Assembly: GCA_009692665.1 (NCBI GenBank)
Contig: SHYT01000001.1
Location: forward strand, 62,001-126,000
Source: Dehalococcoidia bacterium
Lineage (GTDB): Bacteria > Chloroflexota > Dehalococcoidia > Lucifugimonadales > SHYT01
Length of the DNA stretch: 64,000 nt
Reading direction: 5' to 3'
In this document: in pieces, positions 5,918 through 64,000 of the stretch
How positions within the stretch are numbered: position 1 is the stretch's first letter
Layout: every line of letters begins with the position of its first letter
The notes under the pieces: generated by a model
Databases searched by the model: none
What the model saw: the letters and a program-made list of their open reading frames with translations, nothing else
What the model was told of the DNA's origin: nothing
Translations under genes and position numbers: made by a program

Positions 5918-5998
5918 GTCCGCATACCTGACATGGCATTGAAGCACCTGCGCTTGACCGTTACCGCCTGCCACCCTACAATAACTGAGCTATTACGG

Positions 5999-6073
5999 GC
6001 GGAAGTAGTTCAGTGGTAGAACGCCTCCTTGCCAAGGAGGAGGTCGGGAGTTCGAGCCTCCTCTTCCGCTCCA
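5999..6073 (+). tRNA. tRNA-Gly (GCC)
   Basis: Acceptor GCGGAAG/CTTCCGC, D arm GTTC/GAAC, anticodon stem CCTCC/GGAGG with loop TTGCCAA (anticodon GCC), T loop TTCGAGC, encoded CCA. Confidence 0.97.
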
Positions 6074-6084
6074 TTTTTTCATCT

Positions 6085-6167
6085 GGCGAAGTGGCGGAAC
6101 GGCAGACGCGACGGTCTCAAAAACCGTTGAGCGCAAGCTCATGTGGGTTCGATCCCCTCCTTCGCCA
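6085..6167 (+). tRNA. tRNA-Leu (CAA)
   Basis: Class II tRNA: acceptor GGCGAAG/CTTCGCC, anticodon stem ACGGT/ACCGT with loop CTCAAAA (anticodon CAA), and a long variable arm TGAGC-GCAA-GCTCA. The T stem GTGGG/CCCTC has a T-T mismatch at its second pair (6144 and 6158). CCA is not encoded, unlike the two neighbouring tRNAs. Confidence 0.93.
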
Positions 6168-8087: not shown

Positions 8088-10835
8088 ATGACTGAACTCC
8101 ACGACCCAGCTTCTAGCGGCCTCACGCCTCTGCGGCGGCAGTACCTGCGCGTGAAAAAGCAGTTCCCAGACGCGATTGTTCTGTTCCGCCTGGGCGACTT
8201 CTACGAGACGTTCGACGGTGACGCGGAAATCACGGCTCGAGAACTGGAAATAGTGCTCACGGGCCGGGAGATGGGCAAGGGTCAGCGCGTGCCCATGGCG
8301 GGCATCCCCTACCACGCCCTCGACTCGTACCTGGCGAAGCTGGTGCGGCGCGGGCACAAGGTGGCAATCTGCGAGCAGCTTACGGACCCGGCGATGAGCA
8401 AGGGATTAGTGGAGCGGGACGTAGTGCGCGTAGTGACGCCTGGTACAGTGCTGGAACCCGCCCTGCTGGAGCAGAAAGCGAATAACTACCTGATGGCAAT
8501 TGCGCCGCTGGAACTCTCGCCCTCCCCCACCTCGACCTCTCTCAACGGAAGAGGAGATCGGGTCGGGTTGGCGTATGCGGATATCACGACAGGCGAGTTC
8601 GCGGTGACCCAGATGGCGGCAGAGCGAATATCGCTGGAGATGGAGCGGCTTAATCCCGCTGAGGTATTGGTGGCGAAGGGCGGGGTGTACAGGATGCAAC
8701 CACTCATGTTCCGGCAGTCTCAGGACGAACGGGACATCCCTGGTGCGGCGGTCACTGAGCTAGAAGCTCGGGACTTTGATACTGCATCGGCGCAGGAATT
8801 GCTGCAAGAGCACTTTGGCGTGATGACCCTGGCCGGGTTTGGACTGGATGGCATGCCGCTGGCGGTGAGCGCCGCAGGTGCGCTGGTGGCGTATTTGCAG
8901 CGGACGCAAAAGGCCGCGCTCACACAGCTCTCAACCCTTCGCACGTATACCACCGAACGCATTGTGCCGTTAGATCCCCAGACTCGGCGCAACCTGGAGT
9001 TGTTCCAGGCGGGCCGCAGCGGAACGGGCAAGCCTCTGCTGACTGAATTAGACACGACCAAAACGCCCATGGGTGGGCGGCTCTTGCGTGCGTGGCTGGG
9101 CCAGCCACTGTACGACCTCGAAGAGTTGCGCCACCGGCAGCACGTGGTGCAGTGGTTCTTTGGCCGTGCCCTCGTGCGCGATCAGGTAAGCAAGCTGCTG
9201 GGGCGCATTATGGATATTGAGCGACTGGTGACTCGTGTGCAAACGGGGATTGCGCTGCCGCGCGAACTGGTGGCCTTGCGACGAAGCCTGGAGGCGCTGC
9301 CTGAGGTCAAGGGCACGCTGGCAACGGAAGGCTTCCCTGATTGGCTTCTCTCTGACCTGCGGCCTTGTGACGAGGTGGCGGCCTTGCTCGCAAAAGCGAT
9401 TGTGGAAGAGCCTGTTGCGCCGCTTGGCGATGGCGGGGTCATCCGGGAAGGATTCTCGCCGGACTTGGACCAATTGCGCGCGGCGTCGCGTGACGCTACG
9501 GGATACCTGGCAGGGTTGGAGCAGCGAGAGCGGGAACGGGCGGGCATCCCCCTCAAGGTCGGATACAACCGCGTGTTTGGCTACTACATTGAAGTCAGCA
9601 AGGCACATGCTGCAAAGGTGCCGCCGGACTTCATTCGCAGGCAAACGTTGGTGAACGGTGAGCGGTATATCACGCCGGAGCTGAAGGAGCATGAGGCCAC
9701 TGTTCTGGGTGCGCAGGAGCGGATGGCGGAGAGGGAGAGCGCGCTGTTTCGCCAGGTGTGTAAGCAGGTAGCGGACTCTGCGGCGCGCCTGCTAGCAACT
9801 GCTCGGGCCGTGGCGCACGTGGATGTTTTCCTGTCGTTCGCGGATGTAGCAGCCAGGCGCGGGTACTGCCGGCCTGAGCTGAATGACGGGACGGAGATTC
9901 GCATTAAGGCGGGCAGGCATCCGGTAGTGGAGCGCTTGCTGCCACAGGGTACGTTTGTGCCCAACGACTTGGAATTGGGGTCGCCGGAGTGCTCCCTCAT
10001 CATCTTGACCGGCCCGAACATGGCGGGCAAGTCAACGTTCCTGCGACAAACTGAATTGATTGTATTGATGGCGCAGGTGGGCAGCTTTGTGCCTGCGGAC
10101 GAGGCGACGATTGGGCTGGTTGACCGCATCTTCACACGCGTGGGGCTGCAGGACGATCTGACGACCGGTATGTCAACTTTCATGCTGGAGATGGTGGAGA
10201 CCGCTCACATCTTGAATAACGCAACGGCGAAATCGCTGGTAATCCTGGACGAGATTGGGCGCGGTACGAGCACGTATGACGGGCTGGCGATTGCGCGCGC
10301 GGTGGCGGAGCACCTGCACAACAGTCCGAAGCTGGGCTGCAAGACGCTCTTTGCCACGCACTACCATGAACTGACGGAGCTTGCGTCAGCCAATGGTGGA
10401 CTGCCCAGGGTGCGAAACTTCAACGTATCCGCGGTGGAGCAGGACGGCAAGCTGGTGTTCCTGCATTCGCTGCGGCCAGGCGGCGCCGACCGCAGCTACG
10501 GCGTGCATGTGGCGCAGTTGGCAGGCTTGCCAAAGCCAGTCGTGCAACGGGCGGAAGAGGTCCTAAGCCAGTTGGAGAGCGGGCAGGGTAACGAGCCGTC
10601 TGTTCACGGTCCGACAAGTCCTTCAATGCACACAGGGCCTGCTTCGCTCGGCACTGGGCGAACGGGGAAGGGGAGCGTGGTTCGGAACACATCACCACAA
10701 CTGCCGCTGCTGCCATCGAACGAAGTGCATCCGGCGTTTCAGGCGCTGATGGAGCTTGACCTGAACGCAATGACGCCTCTGGAGGCGCTGAACAAGCTAG
10801 CGGAGTTGCAGAGACAGGCGAAACGGGGAAAGTAG
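8088..10835 (+). CDS. mutS: DNA mismatch repair protein MutS
   Basis: 915 aa. ATG 8088 is preferred because GAAGG lies 5 bases upstream; an in-frame GTG at 8073 is possible. The N-terminal mismatch-binding domain has the Phe-X-Glu element in GDFYETFDGD. The connector, lever and clamp domains follow. The C-terminal ATPase shows Walker A GPNMAGKSTFLRQ (about residue 640), Walker B LVILDEIGRGTSTYDG, and the TLFATHYHELTEL segment. The last 70 residues are a low-complexity linker and a short helical tail (FQALMELDLNAMTPLEALNKL), the dimer/tetramerisation tail. The protein recognises mispairs and recruits MutL; no mutL is in the window. There is no sign of truncation. Confidence 0.97.
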   Translation: MTELHDPASSGLTPLRRQYLRVKKQFPDAIVLFRLGDFYETFDGDAEITARELEIVLTGREMGKGQRVPMAGIPYHALDSYLAKLVRRGHKVAICEQLTDPAMSKGLVERDVVRVVTPGTVLEPALLEQKANNYLMAIAPLELSPSPTSTSLNGRGDRVGLAYADITTGEFAVTQMAAERISLEMERLNPAEVLVAKGGVYRMQPLMFRQSQDERDIPGAAVTELEARDFDTASAQELLQEHFGVMTLAGFGLDGMPLAVSAAGALVAYLQRTQKAALTQLSTLRTYTTERIVPLDPQTRRNLELFQAGRSGTGKPLLTELDTTKTPMGGRLLRAWLGQPLYDLEELRHRQHVVQWFFGRALVRDQVSKLLGRIMDIERLVTRVQTGIALPRELVALRRSLEALPEVKGTLATEGFPDWLLSDLRPCDEVAALLAKAIVEEPVAPLGDGGVIREGFSPDLDQLRAASRDATGYLAGLEQRERERAGIPLKVGYNRVFGYYIEVSKAHAAKVPPDFIRRQTLVNGERYITPELKEHEATVLGAQERMAERESALFRQVCKQVADSAARLLATARAVAHVDVFLSFADVAARRGYCRPELNDGTEIRIKAGRHPVVERLLPQGTFVPNDLELGSPECSLIILTGPNMAGKSTFLRQTELIVLMAQVGSFVPADEATIGLVDRIFTRVGLQDDLTTGMSTFMLEMVETAHILNNATAKSLVILDEIGRGTSTYDGLAIARAVAEHLHNSPKLGCKTLFATHYHELTELASANGGLPRVRNFNVSAVEQDGKLVFLHSLRPGGADRSYGVHVAQLAGLPKPVVQRAEEVLSQLESGQGNEPSVHGPTSPSMHTGPASLGTGRTGKGSVVRNTSPQLPLLPSNEVHPAFQALMELDLNAMTPLEALNKLAELQRQAKRGK

Positions 10836-55405: not shown

Positions 55406-56384
55406 GCCGCTTGCCCCACGCCTGTGGGTTCACCAGGTGCGTTGGCCGCTTGCCATCCAGAAAGCGCAGTATGTCCTGCGCCATCATGTTTGAATACCGC
55501 TCAATCGTTTCCTCCGTGGCGCCGCCGATGTGCGGTGTCAGCACCACGTTGGGTAGCGACAGCAGCGGACTGCTCGTCGGTAGTGGCGCCGAGTCAAACA
55601 CGTCCAGCGCTGCGCCTGCCAGCTTGCCCGCACGCAGTGCACCGACCAGTGCAGTGGTGTCTACCAGTCCGGGTGCGGCGGTATTGATGAGGTACGCCGA
55701 AGGCTTCATGGCCGCGATGCGGCCGATGTCCAGCATCGGCTTTCCGTCCGCAGGCTCAGGCGCGTGCAGCGTCACCACGTCGCTTTGCGCCAGCAGCGCA
55801 TCGAGCGGCACCATCTCCACGCCACGCACGGGCTTGGCGTACGGGTCGGTCGCCACCACGCGCATGCCAATCGCCCGTGCGATTCCTGCCATGCGCTTGC
55901 CCACCTGCCCGAGGCCAACAACGCCCAGCGTCTTCCCCGCAAGCTCGCGTCCGCGGAGGGTAATGTAGGGCTCAACCGGGTCTTGCCACTTGCCCGTTCG
56001 CACGTACTCGTCCGACGCCGGAATGTGCCGCGCCAGCGCCAGCATCAGCCCGATGGTGTGCTCCGCGACCGCGGCTGCGTTGCGCGCGGGCGTGTTCACC
56101 ACCAGCACGCCGTGCGCGGTGGCTGCGTCTACGTCCACGTGGTTCACCGCGCTCCGGCACACGCCAACAAACCGTAGCGGCGAGCCTTCCTGGAATACAT
56201 CATCGATGAGAAAATCAGCTTCGATGACAACGGCTTGAATGCCGTGGGCCTGAATGTGCTCCGCCAAGTCGCGCGGGTCCCACAGCTTCCGCGTTTCCGT
56301 CCACGGCTCGTACGTCACGCGCATCCGTTCGCGCAGGGCACTCAATGCGTCCGAGTGGAACGGCGCCAGCACGAGGGCGTTCAC
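55398..56384 (-). CDS. D-2-hydroxyacid dehydrogenase-like protein lacking Arg and Glu of the catalytic triad
   Basis: 328 aa from GTG 56384, which overlaps the hpnE stop as GTGA; the longer open frame is antisense-like and lacks the fold. Rossmann motif TLGVVGLGQVGKRMAGIARAIG is normal. The canonical Arg (N-T-x-R-G) is replaced: the sequence reads LINTAAPGLVDTTAL. The canonical Glu (F-x-x-E-P) is also missing: LDVFDSAPLPTSSPLL. The His of VLTPHIGGATEET remains. Family members use Arg to bind the carboxylate and Glu to tune the His, so the protein may act on a non-acid substrate, bind without catalysis, or be inactive. Translationally coupled to both neighbours. Confidence 0.88.
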   Translation of the reverse strand: MNALVLAPFHSDALSALRERMRVTYEPWTETRKLWDPRDLAEHIQAHGIQAVVIEADFLIDDVFQEGSPLRFVGVCRSAVNHVDVDAATAHGVLVVNTPARNAAAVAEHTIGLMLALARHIPASDEYVRTGKWQDPVEPYITLRGRELAGKTLGVVGLGQVGKRMAGIARAIGMRVVATDPYAKPVRGVEMVPLDALLAQSDVVTLHAPEPADGKPMLDIGRIAAMKPSAYLINTAAPGLVDTTALVGALRAGKLAGAALDVFDSAPLPTSSPLLSLPNVVLTPHIGGATEETIERYSNMMAQDILRFLDGKRPTHLVNPQAWGKRRE

Positions 56385-57781
56385 TGGGCGGCCAAGGTCT
56401 GCTGCCGCGCGAGACCGCGCGTAGCCGCCTGCGCCGCAAGCTGCCCGCTGCGCACCGCCGACTCCATGGTGGACGGCCAGCCAGTTTGCGTCCAATCGCC
56501 CGCCAAAAACAAGTTCAGGATGGGCGTCTCTTGCTGTGGCCGGAACGCCTCGGCTCCGGGCTTTGAGCGAAACGTTGCAGCAAGCTGCTTGACGACGATG
56601 AACCGCTCGACGTGCGCGTCACGCGCCTTGGGGAAGAGGTGCGCCATCTCCTTCGTGAATAACTGGCGCAGTCCTTCTTTGCCCATTGTGGCGTACTCCC
56701 ACGCTCCGCTGAGCGAGATGCAGACGTACTGCCACGGGCCTGCCAGTCCCTGAATCCGCGACTTGTTGAACACCCACTGCACGGGGCTGTCCACAAATGC
56801 CGCGAACTCGTCGTCCATCACACGCCGATCGTACCAGATGTGTATGCCCACAATCGGCGCGCCCTCCAGATGCTGGGCCTCTGCGAAGAACGGGACTTGC
56901 GCCGTCTCAGCCGGCAGCAGCTTGGGGAGCGCGTCCCAAGGCACTGCAGCGACAAACACGTCTCCGGTGATGACCTGCCCGCTTGCCAGTTCTGCCCCGT
57001 ACACTCGGTCGCCGTCCATGTGCAGCTTGGCAACCGCGCTCCCGAGCAGCATTCTGCCCCCGGCTGCTTTCACTACGCGCTGTGCAGCATCGCTCAGCAG
57101 CGCGGTTAAGCCCACGCGCGCGTACCCTACGTCAGCGCCATGCCTGCCCTTGAGCAGCGCTCCCTGGAAGACCATGATGCCCATGTCCGCGCTGACGGCA
57201 GCTATGTCATCGTTCAGCGTGGGCAGGACGATCACGTTCCAGAAACGCTGGATGGCTCCTTCACGCTCGCCATGCACCAGAAGCCAGTCGCGGAACGACT
57301 GTGCCTGCAACTGCTCTGTCTGCCGCCATCGATCCGTGCGCATCAGCCGCAGCATCACGCGCAGCGTGTTCAAGCGCTCGCCAAAGGTCAGATGCCTGTA
57401 CGTGAGCGACGTGGGGAGAAGGTGCAGCGGCGACGGCAACCACGGCGCAGCGCTGATGACGCTCGTACGCCCATCGCGTGAGGAAACGGGGATGGACAGC
57501 CGCTTTTGGATAGATGTCTTGTCTACGACTCCCAGGCGCTTGATGAACGCCATGTACGCGGTACAGCACCCCAAGAAAACGTGCTGCCCGTTGTCTACCT
57601 CTTGGCCGGTCTCCTGGTCTACAAACGAATACGCCCGTCCCCCCAGGAACGGGCGTCGCTCAATCAGGGTCACGTGGTGGCCCGCATCCAGCAGGGCAAT
57701 CGCGGCGGACAGGCCCGCCAGCCCGCCACCTATGACGACGCAGCGGCGCCCTTGTGTCTCGCCAGGGACGATTGCACCCAC
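56381..57781 (-). CDS. hpnE: Hydroxysqualene dehydroxylase
   Basis: 466 aa. FAD-dependent amine-oxidase-like desaturase family. N-terminal dinucleotide site CVVIGGGLAGLSAAIALLDAG and LIERRPFLGGRAYSFVD, with EVDNGQHVFLGC typical of the squalene-associated subgroup. C-terminal FAD motif NLFLAGDWTQTGWPSTMESAVRSG. Within HpnCDE it removes the hydroxyl from hydroxysqualene to give squalene. GTG start overlapping hpnD by 52 bases; GTGA overlap with the next gene. Phytoene desaturase is an alternative, but the neighbours decide. Confidence 0.93.
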   Translation of the reverse strand: MGAIVPGETQGRRCVVIGGGLAGLSAAIALLDAGHHVTLIERRPFLGGRAYSFVDQETGQEVDNGQHVFLGCCTAYMAFIKRLGVVDKTSIQKRLSIPVSSRDGRTSVISAAPWLPSPLHLLPTSLTYRHLTFGERLNTLRVMLRLMRTDRWRQTEQLQAQSFRDWLLVHGEREGAIQRFWNVIVLPTLNDDIAAVSADMGIMVFQGALLKGRHGADVGYARVGLTALLSDAAQRVVKAAGGRMLLGSAVAKLHMDGDRVYGAELASGQVITGDVFVAAVPWDALPKLLPAETAQVPFFAEAQHLEGAPIVGIHIWYDRRVMDDEFAAFVDSPVQWVFNKSRIQGLAGPWQYVCISLSGAWEYATMGKEGLRQLFTKEMAHLFPKARDAHVERFIVVKQLAATFRSKPGAEAFRPQQETPILNLFLAGDWTQTGWPSTMESAVRSGQLAAQAATRGLARQQTLAAQ

Positions 57782-58614
57782 AGCTTCAACGCTAACGTCA
57801 ACTTCTCCGCTGAGGAAAGTCCAATCCGCTCTTGGAACACATTGTAGCCGCGCGCCTCAATGTGGTGCAGCACGCGCTGGTACAGCCCACCGAGCACCGC
57901 CGGACACGCGCGCGACCGCCGCGGCAGCATGGGCACCAACCGCAGCCCGCTGTCAAAATACTGACGCGCCCGCTCCCCCTGATACCGCATCAGCGCTACA
58001 AACGCGTCGTTGTAGACGTTGTTCTTCGCATCTTGCGGCGAATAGCCGAACCGCGCCATCTCGTCCAGCGGGATGTAGATGCGGTCGTTTGCCGCATCTT
58101 CGCGTACGTCGCGCATGATGTTCGTGAGCTGCATCGCCATGCCCAGGTCCACCGCCGCTGGCTCAAGTTTCGGGTCATCGCCTGCAAAAATCCGCACCGA
58201 CACGAGCCCAACGGCCGACGCCACCCGATAGCAATACGTCTTCAGTTCTTCGAACGTCTGGTACCGGGTGGTGGTCAGGTCCATCTGCACGCCGCGTATA
58301 ATCTCTTCAAGATAGGCCCGCGGTATGGAATACTTCTGCGCCGCGTCCGCAAGCGCCACAAACGTTTCACCACGGGGCATTCCCCGGTACGCTTCCTCAA
58401 GTGCAGCGCCTACCTGCAGCAGCCCCATCGCTTTGTCATCAACACTGGCGTCGCCGTCGGCCACGTCATCACACAGGCGGCAAAACGCGTACACCGCGTA
58501 AATTGCTTGCCGCTGTGGCTTGGGCAGGGTAATGAACGCATAGTAGAAGTTCTTGGCAGATGACTTGGTCACCCGCTGGCATTGGAGGTACGCCTCTTGC
58601 AGTGCAGTAGCCAT
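57730..58614 (-). CDS. hpnD: Presqualene diphosphate synthase
   Basis: 294 aa from ATG 58614. Trans-isoprenyl head-to-head synthase that joins two farnesyl diphosphates to presqualene diphosphate. The aspartate motifs are present: YAFCRLCDDVADGD (first) and NIMRDVREDAANDRIYIPLD (second), with SAKNFYYAFITLPKPQRQAI at the start. A start further upstream (58695) is open but overlaps hpnC. Order hpnC-hpnD-hpnE is the common one. Confidence 0.93.
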   Translation of the reverse strand: MATALQEAYLQCQRVTKSSAKNFYYAFITLPKPQRQAIYAVYAFCRLCDDVADGDASVDDKAMGLLQVGAALEEAYRGMPRGETFVALADAAQKYSIPRAYLEEIIRGVQMDLTTTRYQTFEELKTYCYRVASAVGLVSVRIFAGDDPKLEPAAVDLGMAMQLTNIMRDVREDAANDRIYIPLDEMARFGYSPQDAKNNVYNDAFVALMRYQGERARQYFDSGLRLVPMLPRRSRACPAVLGGLYQRVLHHIEARGYNVFQERIGLSSAEKLTLALKLWVQSSLARHKGAAASS

Positions 58615-58643
58615 GCTGTGGCACCCCTCGTGCTCCAGGTGCC

Positions 58644-59549
58644 TTAGGAAAAGCGCCCTGTTTTCAGAGCGACAAACGTGGTGGCAGCCAGCCACGCCTT
58701 CCGCGCTTTGCTGACGGTTGGCCGCTGCTTCAACACATCGTAGCCCTGCCGTTCGATGGCGTCCAGCACGCTCATGCCGCCCCGAGAGAACAGCGCCAAG
58801 TCCAGCCGCAGTTTTCCGGGCACCATCCTGACCAGCGGCAGCCCCTGCCGAAATAGTTCCCGCGCACGATTTACTTCAAACTCCAGCAGCCGCAGAAACT
58901 CAGCACTTGCCGCGTCTCGCGCAAGTTCTGCCTCTGTGCAGCCGAACCGCGCCAGGTCTTCCTGTGGAATGTAGATGCGGCCCATCGCGTAGTCCCGCCG
59001 GACGTCTTGCCAGAAGTTCGCAAGCTGTAACGCTGTGCACGTTGCATCGGACAGCCGCTGCCGATCAGCATCCCGAAATCCAAAGACGTAAAGCGCCAGA
59101 TGTCCCACGGAGTTCGCCGAATTTTCGCAGTAGACCAGCAGGTCCTTAAACGTGGGATATCGATTGATAGCCTGATCCATCCGGTTGGCCTGCACGAGTT
59201 TCAGGAACGGCTCGCGCGGGATGTCAAACGTTGCGATGGTCTGCTGCAAAGCTACAAGGTACGGGTGCTGAGGCTGACCACCATAGCACTGGAGAAAGTC
59301 CTGCTCCCACGCGTCCAACTGCGCCAGCCGGTCGCCAACCGCTTCATCGCCCAGGTCGTCAACCGCACGCGCAAAGGCATAGATAGCCGCTATGTGTGGG
59401 ACCAGATGCTTGGGGAGGAACCACGTAGCAATCGAGAAGTTTTCGTAATGGTATCCGAGCAGCGCCAGGCATCCCTTGTACGCCTCGTCAACAGCAGCGG
59501 CGGACGCTCCTGTTCCAGGCCTGGGCTGGACAACCCAGGAATGCGCCAT
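58644..59549 (-). CDS. hpnC: Hydroxysqualene synthase
   Basis: 301 aa. Same fold as HpnD. Motifs AIYAFARAVDDLGDEAVGDR and NFWQDVRRDYAMGRIYIPQED hold the metal-binding aspartates, and YHYENFSIATWFLPKHL marks the HpnC subgroup (which begins ENF.V.S.LLP). It converts presqualene diphosphate to hydroxysqualene. Starts 6 bases beyond the stop of the YjbQ-family gene, so the two share a transcript. Confidence 0.92.
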   Translation of the reverse strand: MAHSWVVQPRPGTGASAAAVDEAYKGCLALLGYHYENFSIATWFLPKHLVPHIAAIYAFARAVDDLGDEAVGDRLAQLDAWEQDFLQCYGGQPQHPYLVALQQTIATFDIPREPFLKLVQANRMDQAINRYPTFKDLLVYCENSANSVGHLALYVFGFRDADRQRLSDATCTALQLANFWQDVRRDYAMGRIYIPQEDLARFGCTEAELARDAASAEFLRLLEFEVNRARELFRQGLPLVRMVPGKLRLDLALFSRGGMSVLDAIERQGYDVLKQRPTVSKARKAWLAATTFVALKTGRFS

Positions 59550-59555
59550 ACCCGG

Positions 59556-60074
59556 CTACTCGCCCAGTACCTGGAGTATGACCTCGCGGTTGCGCGGGCA
59601 GTCTAACTCCAGGAAAAAGATACTTTGCCAGGAGCCAAGTGCCACCTTCCCGTCCACGATGGGAATAGTTTCACTCACGCCCACCAGCAGGTGCTGGCAG
59701 TGCGCGTGGCCGTTGGGCCCTTCGCTAGCGGTCATGTTAACGGTGCGGATGGTGAAGTCATTGTGCTGGTAATACGCGCTCTTTGGAGCAAATGCTTCTA
59801 ACCGCTTCTTCATGTCTTCCAGCAGCAGGGGCTCATTCTCATTGATGAGGACCGCTGCAGTCGTGTGCTTAGAGAACACCACCACCACGCCGTTCTGCAC
59901 TTGCGTCTCTTTCACAAAATCGCGGACGCGATCGGTAATGTCCATGAAATCCGGCGCCCGCTTCGTTGAAATCTTCAAGGTTATTGTGTACATGCCAAAG
60001 CCCAGCTTTTTAGCGGGAGACTTACCATTTCCGTTCTCCCGCGTTGTCTTGCCTGGCTGCTTGGTAGCTACCAT
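59556..60074 (-). CDS. YjbQ/UPF0047 family protein
   Basis: 172 aa from ATG 60074 (AGGAG 8 bases upstream). After a 25-residue Lys/Gly-rich lead comes the compact YjbQ fold: DFMDITDRVRDFV, GVVVVFSKHTTAAVLINENEP, LLLEDM, GHAHCQHLLVGVSETIPIVDG and ALGSWQSIFFLELDCPRNRE, with the clustered His, Glu and Cys that define the family. Some members have thiamine-phosphate synthase side activity; the true function is unsettled. Unusual inside a hopanoid string. Confidence 0.88.
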   Translation of the reverse strand: MVATKQPGKTTRENGNGKSPAKKLGFGMYTITLKISTKRAPDFMDITDRVRDFVKETQVQNGVVVVFSKHTTAAVLINENEPLLLEDMKKRLEAFAPKSAYYQHNDFTIRTVNMTASEGPNGHAHCQHLLVGVSETIPIVDGKVALGSWQSIFFLELDCPRNREVILQVLGE

Positions 60075-60096
60075 GCTTGCGTCTCCTGCTTCGCTC

Positions 60097-60640
60097 CTAG
60101 TTTGCTGTACTCTGTTGCATAGCCCCATCGCGATACCGTTTATGGCGCCCCAGCGCCATTAGGGGCCAGTAGATGCGGTACATGTGGTACTTGATCATAA
60201 ACCCCGCTGACAAGTCGGTTGCTTGATACCTTAGATTTCCCGGCCTGCGCATTTTATCAAGCCGCTTACCAATACCGTATCCGGGAAATCCCGTGCCAGT
60301 GAACCACGGCTCATCCCAGGAACCATCCTCGTTTTGTGTCCCAGCCAGGTATTGTAACCCTCGTTCCAAGGTTGGGTGCTCCCACTCGCCCGCCGCCATT
60401 AGCGCCAACAGGGCCCAGGCTGTCTGCGAAGCCGTGCTTGCCCCACACCCACGCCAAGTGGGAGCGGCGTAGTTGGCGCATGATTCACCCCACCCGCCAT
60501 CCTGGTTCTGATGCATCGCTATCCAGTCTACAGCCTTTCGGACGCGGAGGTCTTGCACAGGCTCTCCAAGCGCTTCTAGAGCAGGCAGCACCGCGCCCGT
60601 TCCGTAGTCAAAAGCCACCCGTCCGAGCGCCGCCCCACCG
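60097..60640 (-). pseudogene. shc: Squalene-hopene cyclase, C-terminal fragment only
   Basis: From about 60640 (open frame; first start GTG 60618) the minus strand encodes FDYGTGAVLPALEALGEPVQ, MHQNQDGGWGESCANY (a QW repeat), STASQTAWALLALMAAG, GTQNEDGSWDEPWFTGTGFP and IKYHMYRIYWPLMALGRHKRY, the normal end of SHC. Only about 175 of about 640 residues are left. The half with the DXDD proton donor and most of the active-site cavity is missing. The 5' edge abuts, out of frame, a truncated hpnA. As it stands it cannot cyclise squalene. Confidence 0.9.
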
Positions 60641-60986
60641 TTACCCAGCTGCTCGTGTGCACCACACGCTGCACGCCTTCGTCCAGCGCTGCCTGCATGA
60701 TATTGCGCGTGCCTATCACGTTCGTCTCATAGTATGGCCGCTCGTCCAAGGGCCAAAACGCGTAGAGCGCCGCCACGTGGAACACCAGGTCGCATCCGCG
60801 TACCGCCTCCCGTACCGACGCCTTGTCGCGGACATCGCCCTCCACTCGCTCCCAGCCTTTGTCTAACGCGTCAAGGTGCTGACTGTCCTTCCGCACTAGC
60901 GCCCTGACCTTCAGCCCGTCATTGGTCAGAGCGCGCGCCACGTGCCCGCCAACGAAGCCCGTTGCTCCGGTCACCAGCGCTCTCAT
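60576..60986 (-). pseudogene. hpnA: Hopanoid-associated sugar epimerase HpnA, N-terminal fragment
   Basis: 136 aa from ATG 60986 (overlapping the hpnG stop as TGATG). RALVTGATGFVGGHVARAL is the NAD site, followed by GDVRDKASVREAVRGCDLVF, HVAALYAFWPLDERPYYETN and VQRVVHTSS (active-site Ser region). The match ends near residue 116; the YxxxK motif and the substrate half (about 215 residues) are absent. The remaining frame runs about 60 bases into cyclase sequence and stops. HpnA-type proteins are extended SDRs thought to modify a sugar-like side chain. Confidence 0.88.
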
Positions 60987-61747
60987 CACTCGATGGTCGC
61001 CGTCGTAGGCCGCTTGCTGAACTGCTCAATGAACTCAAACATGCAAAGCGTCAAACTCCGACGCGCCTTGTCGGACTTCTGCCACAGCATGTACAGTGAC
61101 GGTAGCTGAAGCGGGTTCTTCAAGATTGAGCCAAGGACATTCCCCGCGCTTGGCTCCTGCTGTGCCAACTTGGGTAGGCTGTCGCCAAGCTCGTCAACAA
61201 TGGCGCGCATGGCCGCAAACGGAATGCCCTGCCGGTGCGCCGCCTCCGCGAGCCAGTACGTCTCCATGTCCACGCCAACAGCGCGCGACTGCTGCGCCAA
61301 CTGCTGCTTCGTTTCGGCAGTGCCCGCCACGGCATCCACCGTCACCATTGGCCCGTCATGCGCCACCAACTTTTGCGCCTGCGCTGACTCCAAGATCAGC
61401 TTCACCAGCGACTTGTTGGGCTTCAGCTCCGGCGTCAGTGTCCCGCGAGATGGCGATACGTGCAGCGCACTTGGCACCATTAAATCCCCAGCTCGAAATG
61501 CAAACTCCAGCGCCCCGGCAAACCCAATGCCCACAATGGCCATCGGATGCTCTCGGGCGCATACCATTTGTACCGCGCGCTGAGCCGCTTCTCTTCCCAT
61601 CCCGCTGACCACCAGCACCACACCTGTATGCCGCCGTCCGCGCCAAACCTTGGTGGCCGCACCAAACGACCTGTCTGGGCTCCACCGAAATGGAAACTGC
61701 CCATCTTTGGTTACTTCTTGCTCTAGGGCGGCGACGATTGCCAGCAT
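60986..61747 (-). CDS. hpnG: Hopanoid-associated nucleoside phosphorylase-like protein
   Basis: 253 aa. Nucleoside-phosphorylase fold: VVSGMGREAAQRAVQMV, IVGIGFAGALEFAFRAGDLM, MVTVDAVAGTAETKQQLAQ, and AVGVDMETYWLAEAAHRQGI (substrate-contacting Glu/Met). In hopanoid makers HpnG removes adenine from adenosylhopane to leave ribosylhopane or its phosphate. Follows hpnH by 4 bases and overlaps hpnA. Confidence 0.93.
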   Translation of the reverse strand: MLAIVAALEQEVTKDGQFPFRWSPDRSFGAATKVWRGRRHTGVVLVVSGMGREAAQRAVQMVCAREHPMAIVGIGFAGALEFAFRAGDLMVPSALHVSPSRGTLTPELKPNKSLVKLILESAQAQKLVAHDGPMVTVDAVAGTAETKQQLAQQSRAVGVDMETYWLAEAAHRQGIPFAAMRAIVDELGDSLPKLAQQEPSAGNVLGSILKNPLQLPSLYMLWQKSDKARRSLTLCMFEFIEQFSKRPTTATIE

Positions 61748-61751
61748 GGGG

Positions 61752-62890
61752 TTAACTAGCCCCTACGCCGCTCTTGTTGCTCACAATCCCCTTCACCAGC
61801 ACCGCCATCTCGCGCGGGCTGCTGAACGCCTTGAGAATCATCGCCGACTCAAACCCGCAGTGCATCATGCAATTGGCGCACGCCGGGTTCTTACCCACGC
61901 CGTACCGCTCCCACAAGCTCGCATCGAACAGCTCGTTCACGTCCTGAATGTGCCCCTCGCTCGCCAGCGGGTAGCACGGCTTGCGCCAGCCCTGGATGGT
62001 GTAGGTGGGGTTCGAGTACGCTGTGCACTGGTAGTGCCGCTTACCCTTCAGGAAGTCCGGATATAGGGGATTGTTGTAGAACCGAAATCGACGTAGCGCC
62101 CCGTCGTTCAAGATGTCGGCATACAGGTCGTGCGACTCCTGCCGCTTCAGGAACACCTCCTGGTCCGGCACCATCGCGAAGTCGTATCCCGCCGACGTCA
62201 TAATCCCTTCAAAGCCCATCTTCGTGACCGTCTCGTACAGCTCGTACAGGTCGTCCTTCTGCGAACCCTTAAACAGCGTTGAGTTGCAACACACGCGGTA
62301 TCCCTGCTCCAGCGCCTTCTTTGCCGCCCGCATGGCCACACGCCACACGTCGCGACGGGCGACGGCTACGTCGTGCCGGTCTTCCATCCCGTCCAGATGA
62401 ATCACCCAGCATAGATATTTGGAGGGCGGCACCTGCGGCAACAGCTTCTCTAGCAGCAACGCATTTGTGCAGCAGTACACAAAGTATTTGCGTTTGATGA
62501 GCTCGTTCAGCAATTCCGGAAGCTGTGGATACATAGTCGGCTCGCCGCCCGCCACCGACACAATGGGCGCGCCCGATTGCTCCACCGCACGCAGAGCGTC
62601 GTCCAGCGGCAGCATGCAGTGGAGCACCGGCTCGTACTCCCGAATGCGCCCACACCTCTCGCACGTCAGGTTGCATGCTTCCAGTGGCTCCAGCATCGTC
62701 ACCAGCGGAAACCGCTTCTGGCCCCGAACCTTCTGCTTGAAATGTACGCAAACAGCCGGATGCCAATCTCCACTGGCCTCTTGGGGGCGCGCTGAGGGCC
62801 TTCCGGTATGTATTCCTTGAGCGCATCCTCCGCGGTCCTGATACGAGGAGCCTGCTTGGTAACCTGAAGCGGTTTGATCGTGACGCTCAT
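61752..62890 (-). pseudogene. hpnH: Adenosyl-hopene transferase HpnH (radical SAM), with one-base frameshift near N-terminus
   Basis: The main frame (61752-62702) holds MLEPLEACNLTCERCGRIRE, with the CxxxCxxC cluster motif, SVAGGEPTMYPQLPELL, CCTNALLLEKLL and GWRKPCYPLASEGHIQ. The true N-terminus is in another frame: ATG 62890 with AGAGG upstream reads MSVTIKPLQVTKQAPRI through VEIGIRLFA. Near 62744-62750 one base seems missing; adding it yields RLFAVHFKQKVRGQKRFPLV joined to TMLEPLEA. HpnH adds 5-deoxyadenosine to diploptene. If the shift is real, an internal start would give about 316 aa keeping the cluster cysteines, so activity is not excluded. Confidence 0.85.
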
Positions 62891-62914: not shown

Positions 62915-63949
62915 CTATTTCTGGCGGATTAAAACGAACTCTACCAGCGCTTCCAATTCCTGCTGCGCGGCCTTCGACAGCCGCGCCTGCCGAGCGCATG
63001 CCAGCGCCTGCGTGCCTTGATCCTCAGCCAGCTTCTGCGCAAACTCGTGCGCCCGAACGTCCTCCAGAATGCCTAGCATTTCATCCACTGCTGCCTCTTC
63101 CACCTGCGGCTGGGACGCCAATACCTCTAGCCGCTTTTTCTGCTTCCCTCGGCTTACTTGGAGCGCGTGCACCACCGGGAACGAGCGCTTTTGCCGCCGC
63201 AAGTCCGCGCCAATCGCTTTGCCGGTCACCTTCTCGTCACCCCAAACGCCCAGCACGTCGTCACGCACCTGAAATGCCAACCCCAACAGCCTTCCGCACT
63301 TCGCCAACGATTCCACTCGGGCCGCGTCCTCAGTCCCCAGAAACGCGCCCAGGCGAGTCGCCGCCTCCATGAGCGCTCCGGTCTTCCGGCTAATCATGTC
63401 TAGATACGCGTCCTGCGAGATGTCCGTGCGCCCCTCAAAGCTCAAGTCCAGGTACTGTCCCTCAATCATTTCGAGGTACAGCTCCGTCAGCATCCGGCTG
63501 GCCGCTACTGCCTTGCCAGCGGGCACACCGGCGCCGGCGAGGCCTCCCAGCGCCAAGTCTGCCACACAGCACAGCACGTCACCAGCCATCAGCGCCGGTG
63601 CTTTGCCCCATACCGTCCAGACAGTCGGTCGGTGCCGCCGTTCCCGGTCGCCATCCTGCAAATCGTCGTGGATGAGGGAAAAATTATGAATAAGTTCCAG
63701 ACTGACCGCCGCGGGCATTGCGCGTTCGGCGTGGCCGCCGACGGCTTCGCACATGAACAGGCAAAGAAGCGGACGTATGGCCTTACCGGAGCCGATGCTG
63801 GACAGCCTTCCGCGCTGGTCTTCCCAGCCCAGGTGGTAGCGCAGCATGTGGAACAAGGGCTGGCTGTCTTGAGGAAGCGAAAGCTTCAGCGCGGCATTGA
63901 GCGCCGAACCGAACCGTTCCAGCGGGGCGCGCGTTTCTACTCGGGCCAT
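62915..63949 (-). CDS. Polyprenyl diphosphate synthase (FPP/GGPP type)
   Basis: 344 aa from ATG 63949; an in-frame GTG at 63997 is possible at the window edge. Trans-isoprenyl diphosphate synthase fold with first aspartate motif LIHNFSLIHDDLQDGD and second motif LGLAFQVRDDVLGVWGD; GSGKAIRPLLCLFMCEAVGG is the conserved start. In a hopanoid locus it most likely supplies farnesyl diphosphate to HpnC/HpnD. Chain length depends on residues upstream of the first motif (here SLELIHNFS), which do not give a clear answer by eye. Transcribed ahead of hpnH. Confidence 0.92.
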   Translation of the reverse strand: MARVETRAPLERFGSALNAALKLSLPQDSQPLFHMLRYHLGWEDQRGRLSSIGSGKAIRPLLCLFMCEAVGGHAERAMPAAVSLELIHNFSLIHDDLQDGDRERRHRPTVWTVWGKAPALMAGDVLCCVADLALGGLAGAGVPAGKAVAASRMLTELYLEMIEGQYLDLSFEGRTDISQDAYLDMISRKTGALMEAATRLGAFLGTEDAARVESLAKCGRLLGLAFQVRDDVLGVWGDEKVTGKAIGADLRRQKRSFPVVHALQVSRGKQKKRLEVLASQPQVEEAAVDEMLGILEDVRAHEFAQKLAEDQGTQALACARQARLSKAAQQELEALVEFVLIRQK

Positions 63950-64000
63950 GCGCTTTTCCGCCTTTTGGTGAGTTGCGAACGAGGGTGAGGCTAGCACACA

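Follow-up and report, generated by a model that had tools for sequence, protein, structure and literature searches.

The hopanoid biosynthesis (hpn) operon of this Dehalococcoidia bacterium, a member of the SAR202 order, contains hpnA and the squalene-hopene cyclase gene shc as two abutting remnants, and we consider it about 75% probable that these record a real and recent deletion of ~2.2 kb in a lineage that is giving up hopanoids while keeping squalene synthesis. HpnD and HpnC convert farnesyl diphosphate to presqualene diphosphate and hydroxysqualene, and HpnE reduces hydroxysqualene to squalene. Hopene is then formed from squalene by the cyclase SHC, and the adenosyl side chain is attached and trimmed by HpnH and HpnG. 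The deletion would have cost hpnA two thirds of its length from the 3' end and shc three quarters from the 5' end, and hpnH, encoding the next hopanoid-specific enzyme, would also have been disrupted, by a frameshift. Such decay is expected, as HpnH is left with nothing to act on once SHC is lost; since the prenyl synthase, hpnC, hpnD and hpnE are intact, squalene is the predicted end product of the operon. We infer that living cells, and not the assembly alone, carry the deletion, that this organism (hereafter G000) contains no hopanoids, and that squalene builds up in it and serves some purpose in its own right.

The window, which is the whole stretch of 64,000 nucleotides that was analysed, carries the operon on its minus strand in the order prenyl diphosphate synthase, hpnH, hpnG, hpnA', 'shc, yjbQ, hpnC, hpnD, hpnE (Table 1). 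All three genes of the HpnCDE squalene route have open frames, each scoring above its curated cut-off. The original prediction that the rest of the operon is intact held for the polyprenyl synthase, hpnC, hpnD, hpnE and hpnG, the last with an open frame; it had not listed hpnH, which is frameshifted near position 62741.

Table 1. Features of the hpn operon in the window, in order of transcription.
Feature	Position	Strand	Evidence
Polyprenyl (farnesyl-type) diphosphate synthase, intact	62915..63997	-	60-61% identity to G001/G002, same position
hpnH (adenosyl-hopene transferase), frameshifted	61752..62890	-	TIGR03470 match from model position 16
hpnG-like phosphorylase, open	60986..61747	-	TIGR03468 E 7.5e-35, 120 bits vs cut-off 187
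hpnA 5' remnant (~118 codons)	60630..60989	-	TIGR03466 1-124/327; 79% identity to G002
Putative deletion junction, breakpoint inside range	60616..60645	-	~2.2 kb missing vs G001/G002
shc 3' remnant (~173 codons)	60097..60618	-	TIGR01507 502-637/640; alignment A2; rate, GC3
yjbQ (UPF0047), intact	59556..60128	-	same position conserved in relatives
hpnC squalene synthase, intact	58644..59549	-	TIGR03464 325 bits vs cut-off 250
hpnD presqualene diphosphate synthase, intact	57730..58695	-	TIGR03465 293 bits vs cut-off 279
hpnE hydroxysqualene dehydroxylase, intact	56381..57781	-	TIGR03467 413 bits vs cut-off 283

As predicted, the start of HpnA runs out of frame and without a linker into the end of SHC, the two remnants comprising ~118 hpnA and ~173 shc codons. 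The hpnA open reading frame (60576-60989, minus strand) runs on into the shc region and matches TIGR03466 over positions 1-124 of 327 only, while the frame at 60097-60618 (minus strand) covers TIGR01507, the SHC model, only over its final fifth, from ~491/502 to 637 of 640 (E 3e-44). Its 133-151 bits lie far below the curated cut-off of 431 for a functional cyclase. The remnants lie in different frames, each free of stop codons in its own, and meet at about 60616-60645; the breakpoint can be placed only to within ~15-30 bases, as the residues LGR preceding the GTG codon may belong to shc (as FGR, with WG deleted) or to hpnA. In the full-length cyclases of two sister genera, G001 and G002, the catalytic acid motif DXDD stands at residue 386 of 677 and 411 of 703 respectively, and the surviving tail begins beyond it, at about residue 507/533 in the same numbering; the motif falls within the missing part, in line with the claim that the cyclase active site was removed. 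Two near-invariant columns are altered within the tail (N143K and D52A in alignment A2).

Comparison within the family, which comprised the two genomes G001 and G002 (about 65% identity in the shc tail), bears out a loss of some 2 kb between originally adjacent genes. Both relatives have the gene order ispA-hpnH-hpnG-hpnA-shc-yjbQ-hpnC-hpnD-hpnE, as in G000, and the proposed check of this locus in sister genomes found hpnA and shc full-length in each, the shc open frames encoding 677 and 703 amino acids. The homology to the HpnA N-terminus and that to the SHC C-terminus are spaced 2155 and 2235 bp apart in G001 and G002, against about zero in G000, and hence ~2.2 kb are missing here. Only the interior of hpnA and shc is absent, as the synteny of a deletion pseudogene would have it.

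The reading frame of hpnH is broken close to its start. The N-terminal ~50 codons (62890-~62742) lie in one frame and the remainder (~62741-61752) in another, such that frame 0 reads KRPVEIGIRLFAYI and frame 2 then continues as FKQKVRGQKRFPLVTMLEP, compared with KRPVEIGIRLFAYLARQKLRGRKRFPLVTMLEP in G002, to which the frame-0 segment is nearly identical; one base is therefore missing near 62741. The long frame has no ATG, GTG or TTG before 62702, and no single open frame with a start codon spans the whole protein. Evolutionary rates were compared across 34 orthologous triples on the contig, as the ratio of the G000 branch to the sister branch (1.48 for the median gene). The ratio of hpnH is the highest of all, at 3.8 (3.87 by maximum likelihood, and 3.55 after trimming, which stripped hpnH and shc of terminal residues read out of frame), and six of its 91 otherwise invariant columns have changed uniquely on the G000 branch. 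The shc tail has a ratio of 2.4 (2.09 trimmed, 2.55 by maximum likelihood), placing it second of 34, or about fourth once trimmed, and its GC3 is the lowest observed (0.59-0.61, against a mean of 0.71 with standard deviation 0.05). The hpnA remnant, at 0.83-1.02, is not accelerated. Signs of relaxed selection are thus seen in the shc tail and hpnH and not in the hpnA remnant, and the rate data favour true decay of the hopanoid-specific genes, short of proof for the junction itself.

A second genome of the same order, G139 (family f28), contains a comparable scar in which residue 239 of hpnA joins residue 409 of shc (G116 numbering). Its hpnA has a further internal deletion ahead of the junction, its shc remnant has accumulated frameshifts, stops and an additional deletion, and its hpnH is without the first ~258 residues; hpnG, yjbQ, hpnC, hpnD and hpnE are intact. 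The breakpoints differ from those in G000, so the two deletions, though alike in kind, arose independently.

Two rival accounts dispute how far the deletion extends beyond this assembly. The original prediction had allowed for a chimeric assembly, and strain mixture or graph simplification might indeed have dropped ~2.2 kb from an intact operon, with a base-calling error in hpnH and normal hopanoids in the cell. On contig C25, 87 kb of conserved coding DNA contain ~4 frameshifts of a single base; in G001 there were none (100 kb) and in G002, tRNA genes aside, none either (75 kb). This is a warning that G000 has more errors at single bases, or more gene decay in general, than its sister genomes; the frameshift in hpnH could accordingly stem from sequencing, and the assembly may be imperfect. 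Besides the one in hpnH, three single-base frameshifts occur on C25 outside the window, at about 61.8, 137.6 and 146.2 kb (L046-L048), in genes resembling a response regulator, an M28-type peptidase and an M50-type protease, and candidates at ~5,940-6,160 of the window turned out to be tRNA genes. The stop-free remnants, the normal rate of the hpnA remnant and the retention of most of hpnH, in an order where SHC and HpnH are rarely found apart, also suit an artefact. Against it, the operon order of the family is kept on both flanks, and therefore two unrelated loci have not been joined; hpnH, which bears the second lesion, evolves faster than any other of the 34 genes; shc, which argues less strongly, is among the faster ones; and G139 shows the same kind of scar, decayed further. 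An assembly origin is weakened by these observations and we regard it as quite unlikely. A genuine deletion confined to a minority or to particular strains, most of the population retaining intact hpnA and shc, is unlikely rather than implausible: the remnants are young and stop-free, and a species-representative genome samples one variant, although the raised rates of hpnH and shc hint weakly at relaxation extending beyond one strain.

The remaining alternatives concern what the cell makes of the damaged operon. Retention of the 173-codon shc tail, or of the hpnA' frame, as a small functional protein might be read from the open state of both remnants and from a GTG start for the tail at 60618, but the tail is accelerated, low in GC3, carries N143K and D52A and has no catalytic acid motif, and the corresponding G139 tail is riddled with frameshifts and stops, so that we give this idea almost no credence. 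Replacement of the hopanoid branch, with another cyclase (sterol-type or unrelated) taking squalene, is very improbable on present evidence. Two relatives of genus g54, G084 and G085, do encode a divergent full-length protein of the SHC superfamily elsewhere in their genomes (256-287 bits). This protein (L180 6817-8718 in G085; contig C15 in G084), which is 27-28% identical and situated away from the hpn operon, is possibly another triterpene cyclase. In G000, however, nothing similar and no second SHC was detected across the whole assembly (1.58 Mb, 91% complete) with the full SHC model or that of the SHC N-terminal domain; at this completeness a second cyclase could lie in the missing part. 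HpnA-like matches elsewhere in G000 were other epimerase-type proteins, well under the cut-off. A study of Methylobacterium extorquens reports C30 carotenoids, with a cluster naming HpnCDE (PMC10448405). No long desaturase-like match was found in G000 besides HpnE, the matches to the HpnE model outside the operon being short FAD-motif stretches, and there is thus no obvious desaturase for C30 carotenoids. Among the outcomes first proposed, use of another cyclase consequently found no counterpart genome-wide, and hopanoid loss with squalene synthesis retained provides the best fit.

Loss of hopanoid genes with retention of squalene genes can be seen on a wider scale in 250 genomes of the order, including the cultured Ca. 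Lucifugimonas marina. SHC is matched in 119 of these and HpnE in 125; 53 of the HpnE-bearing genomes have no SHC match, HpnE scoring above its cut-off in 45 of them, and they include the single-contig G120 (CP046147.1, Ca. Lucifugimonas marina), G049 and G086. SHC and HpnH co-occur almost perfectly across the order; G153, G212 and G248, which have HpnH without SHC, were rejected as cases of loss since a contig ends close to hpnH in each. Operons without SHC still have the prenyl synthase alongside hpnCDE, and yjbQ, which in most relatives across the order stands between shc and hpnC, is kept in several; the gaps of ten such operons contained no relics of shc, hpnA or hpnH. At L034-L038, several SHC-bearing relatives match HpnD only, with no matches to hpnC, hpnE or hpnA at the locus, and squalene may be made differently there. 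A tree of HpnC, HpnD and HpnE from 49 genomes, made by a quick method and including some long branches, implies 11-12 changes of SHC status, of which well-supported branches force at least 8-9, and it groups G000 with G001 and G002, both of which have SHC, at 100% support. The tree alone cannot tell gain from loss; the remnants show loss in G000 and G139. Median estimated genome size is 1.9 Mb for genera having HpnE without SHC (16, G000 and G139 included) against 3.1 Mb for those with SHC (52), a difference (Mann-Whitney p = 1e-4) based on sizes for most rather than all genomes and uncorrected for phylogeny; Lucifugimonas and genus g72, whose genomes are large, run against this trend.

Loss of a gene by deletion is in itself ordinary. 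That the same loss should recur many times within one order suggests that its members benefit from retaining squalene as such. Our tentative proposal, to which we would give somewhat less than even odds, is that squalene, and not hopanoids, is a functional membrane lipid or end product in SAR202, such that hpnCDE have been selected repeatedly while shc, hpnA and hpnH were discarded, often in smaller genomes, and the window captures one such step in progress. Hopanoids are major geological biomarkers, and squalene synthesis genes are easily taken as a sign of their production; since about 14 genera of an abundant group of ocean bacteria have kept these genes beyond the loss of the cyclase, their presence does not by itself predict hopanoids. 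Two independent half-decayed operons, in the window and in G139, make the order of events visible, and the cultured, SHC-less Ca. Lucifugimonas marina offers a direct way to test for free squalene. We found no description of a recurrent reduction from hopanoid to squalene operons in SAR202 in a literature search that took in few subscription journals; the SAR202 literature searched mentions hopanoids as substrates only and does not describe SHC loss.

In the content and order of its surviving genes, the G000 locus resembles an hpn operon using the HpnCDE route, and differs from one in having hpnA and shc as fused remnants and a frameshifted hpnH, so that neither cyclisation nor the side-chain steps are expected to work. 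G139 shares with it the hpnA'-'shc scar, the damaged hpnH and the intact hpnG, yjbQ and hpnCDE, but has its own breakpoints and an older decay marked by stops, frameshifts and further deletions. Ca. Lucifugimonas marina and its sister species likewise keep ispA, yjbQ, hpnC, hpnD and hpnE, and SHC is missing from the closed genome of Ca. Lucifugimonas marina; in contrast to G000, hpnH, hpnA and shc have left no trace, and an hpnG-like gene is retained. In Lucifugimonas this phosphorylase gene adjoins the prenyl synthase (L164 5097-5735, L165 4660-5286, L166 about 9530-10290), and, because it has outlasted hpnH, hpnA and shc, it probably has another role.
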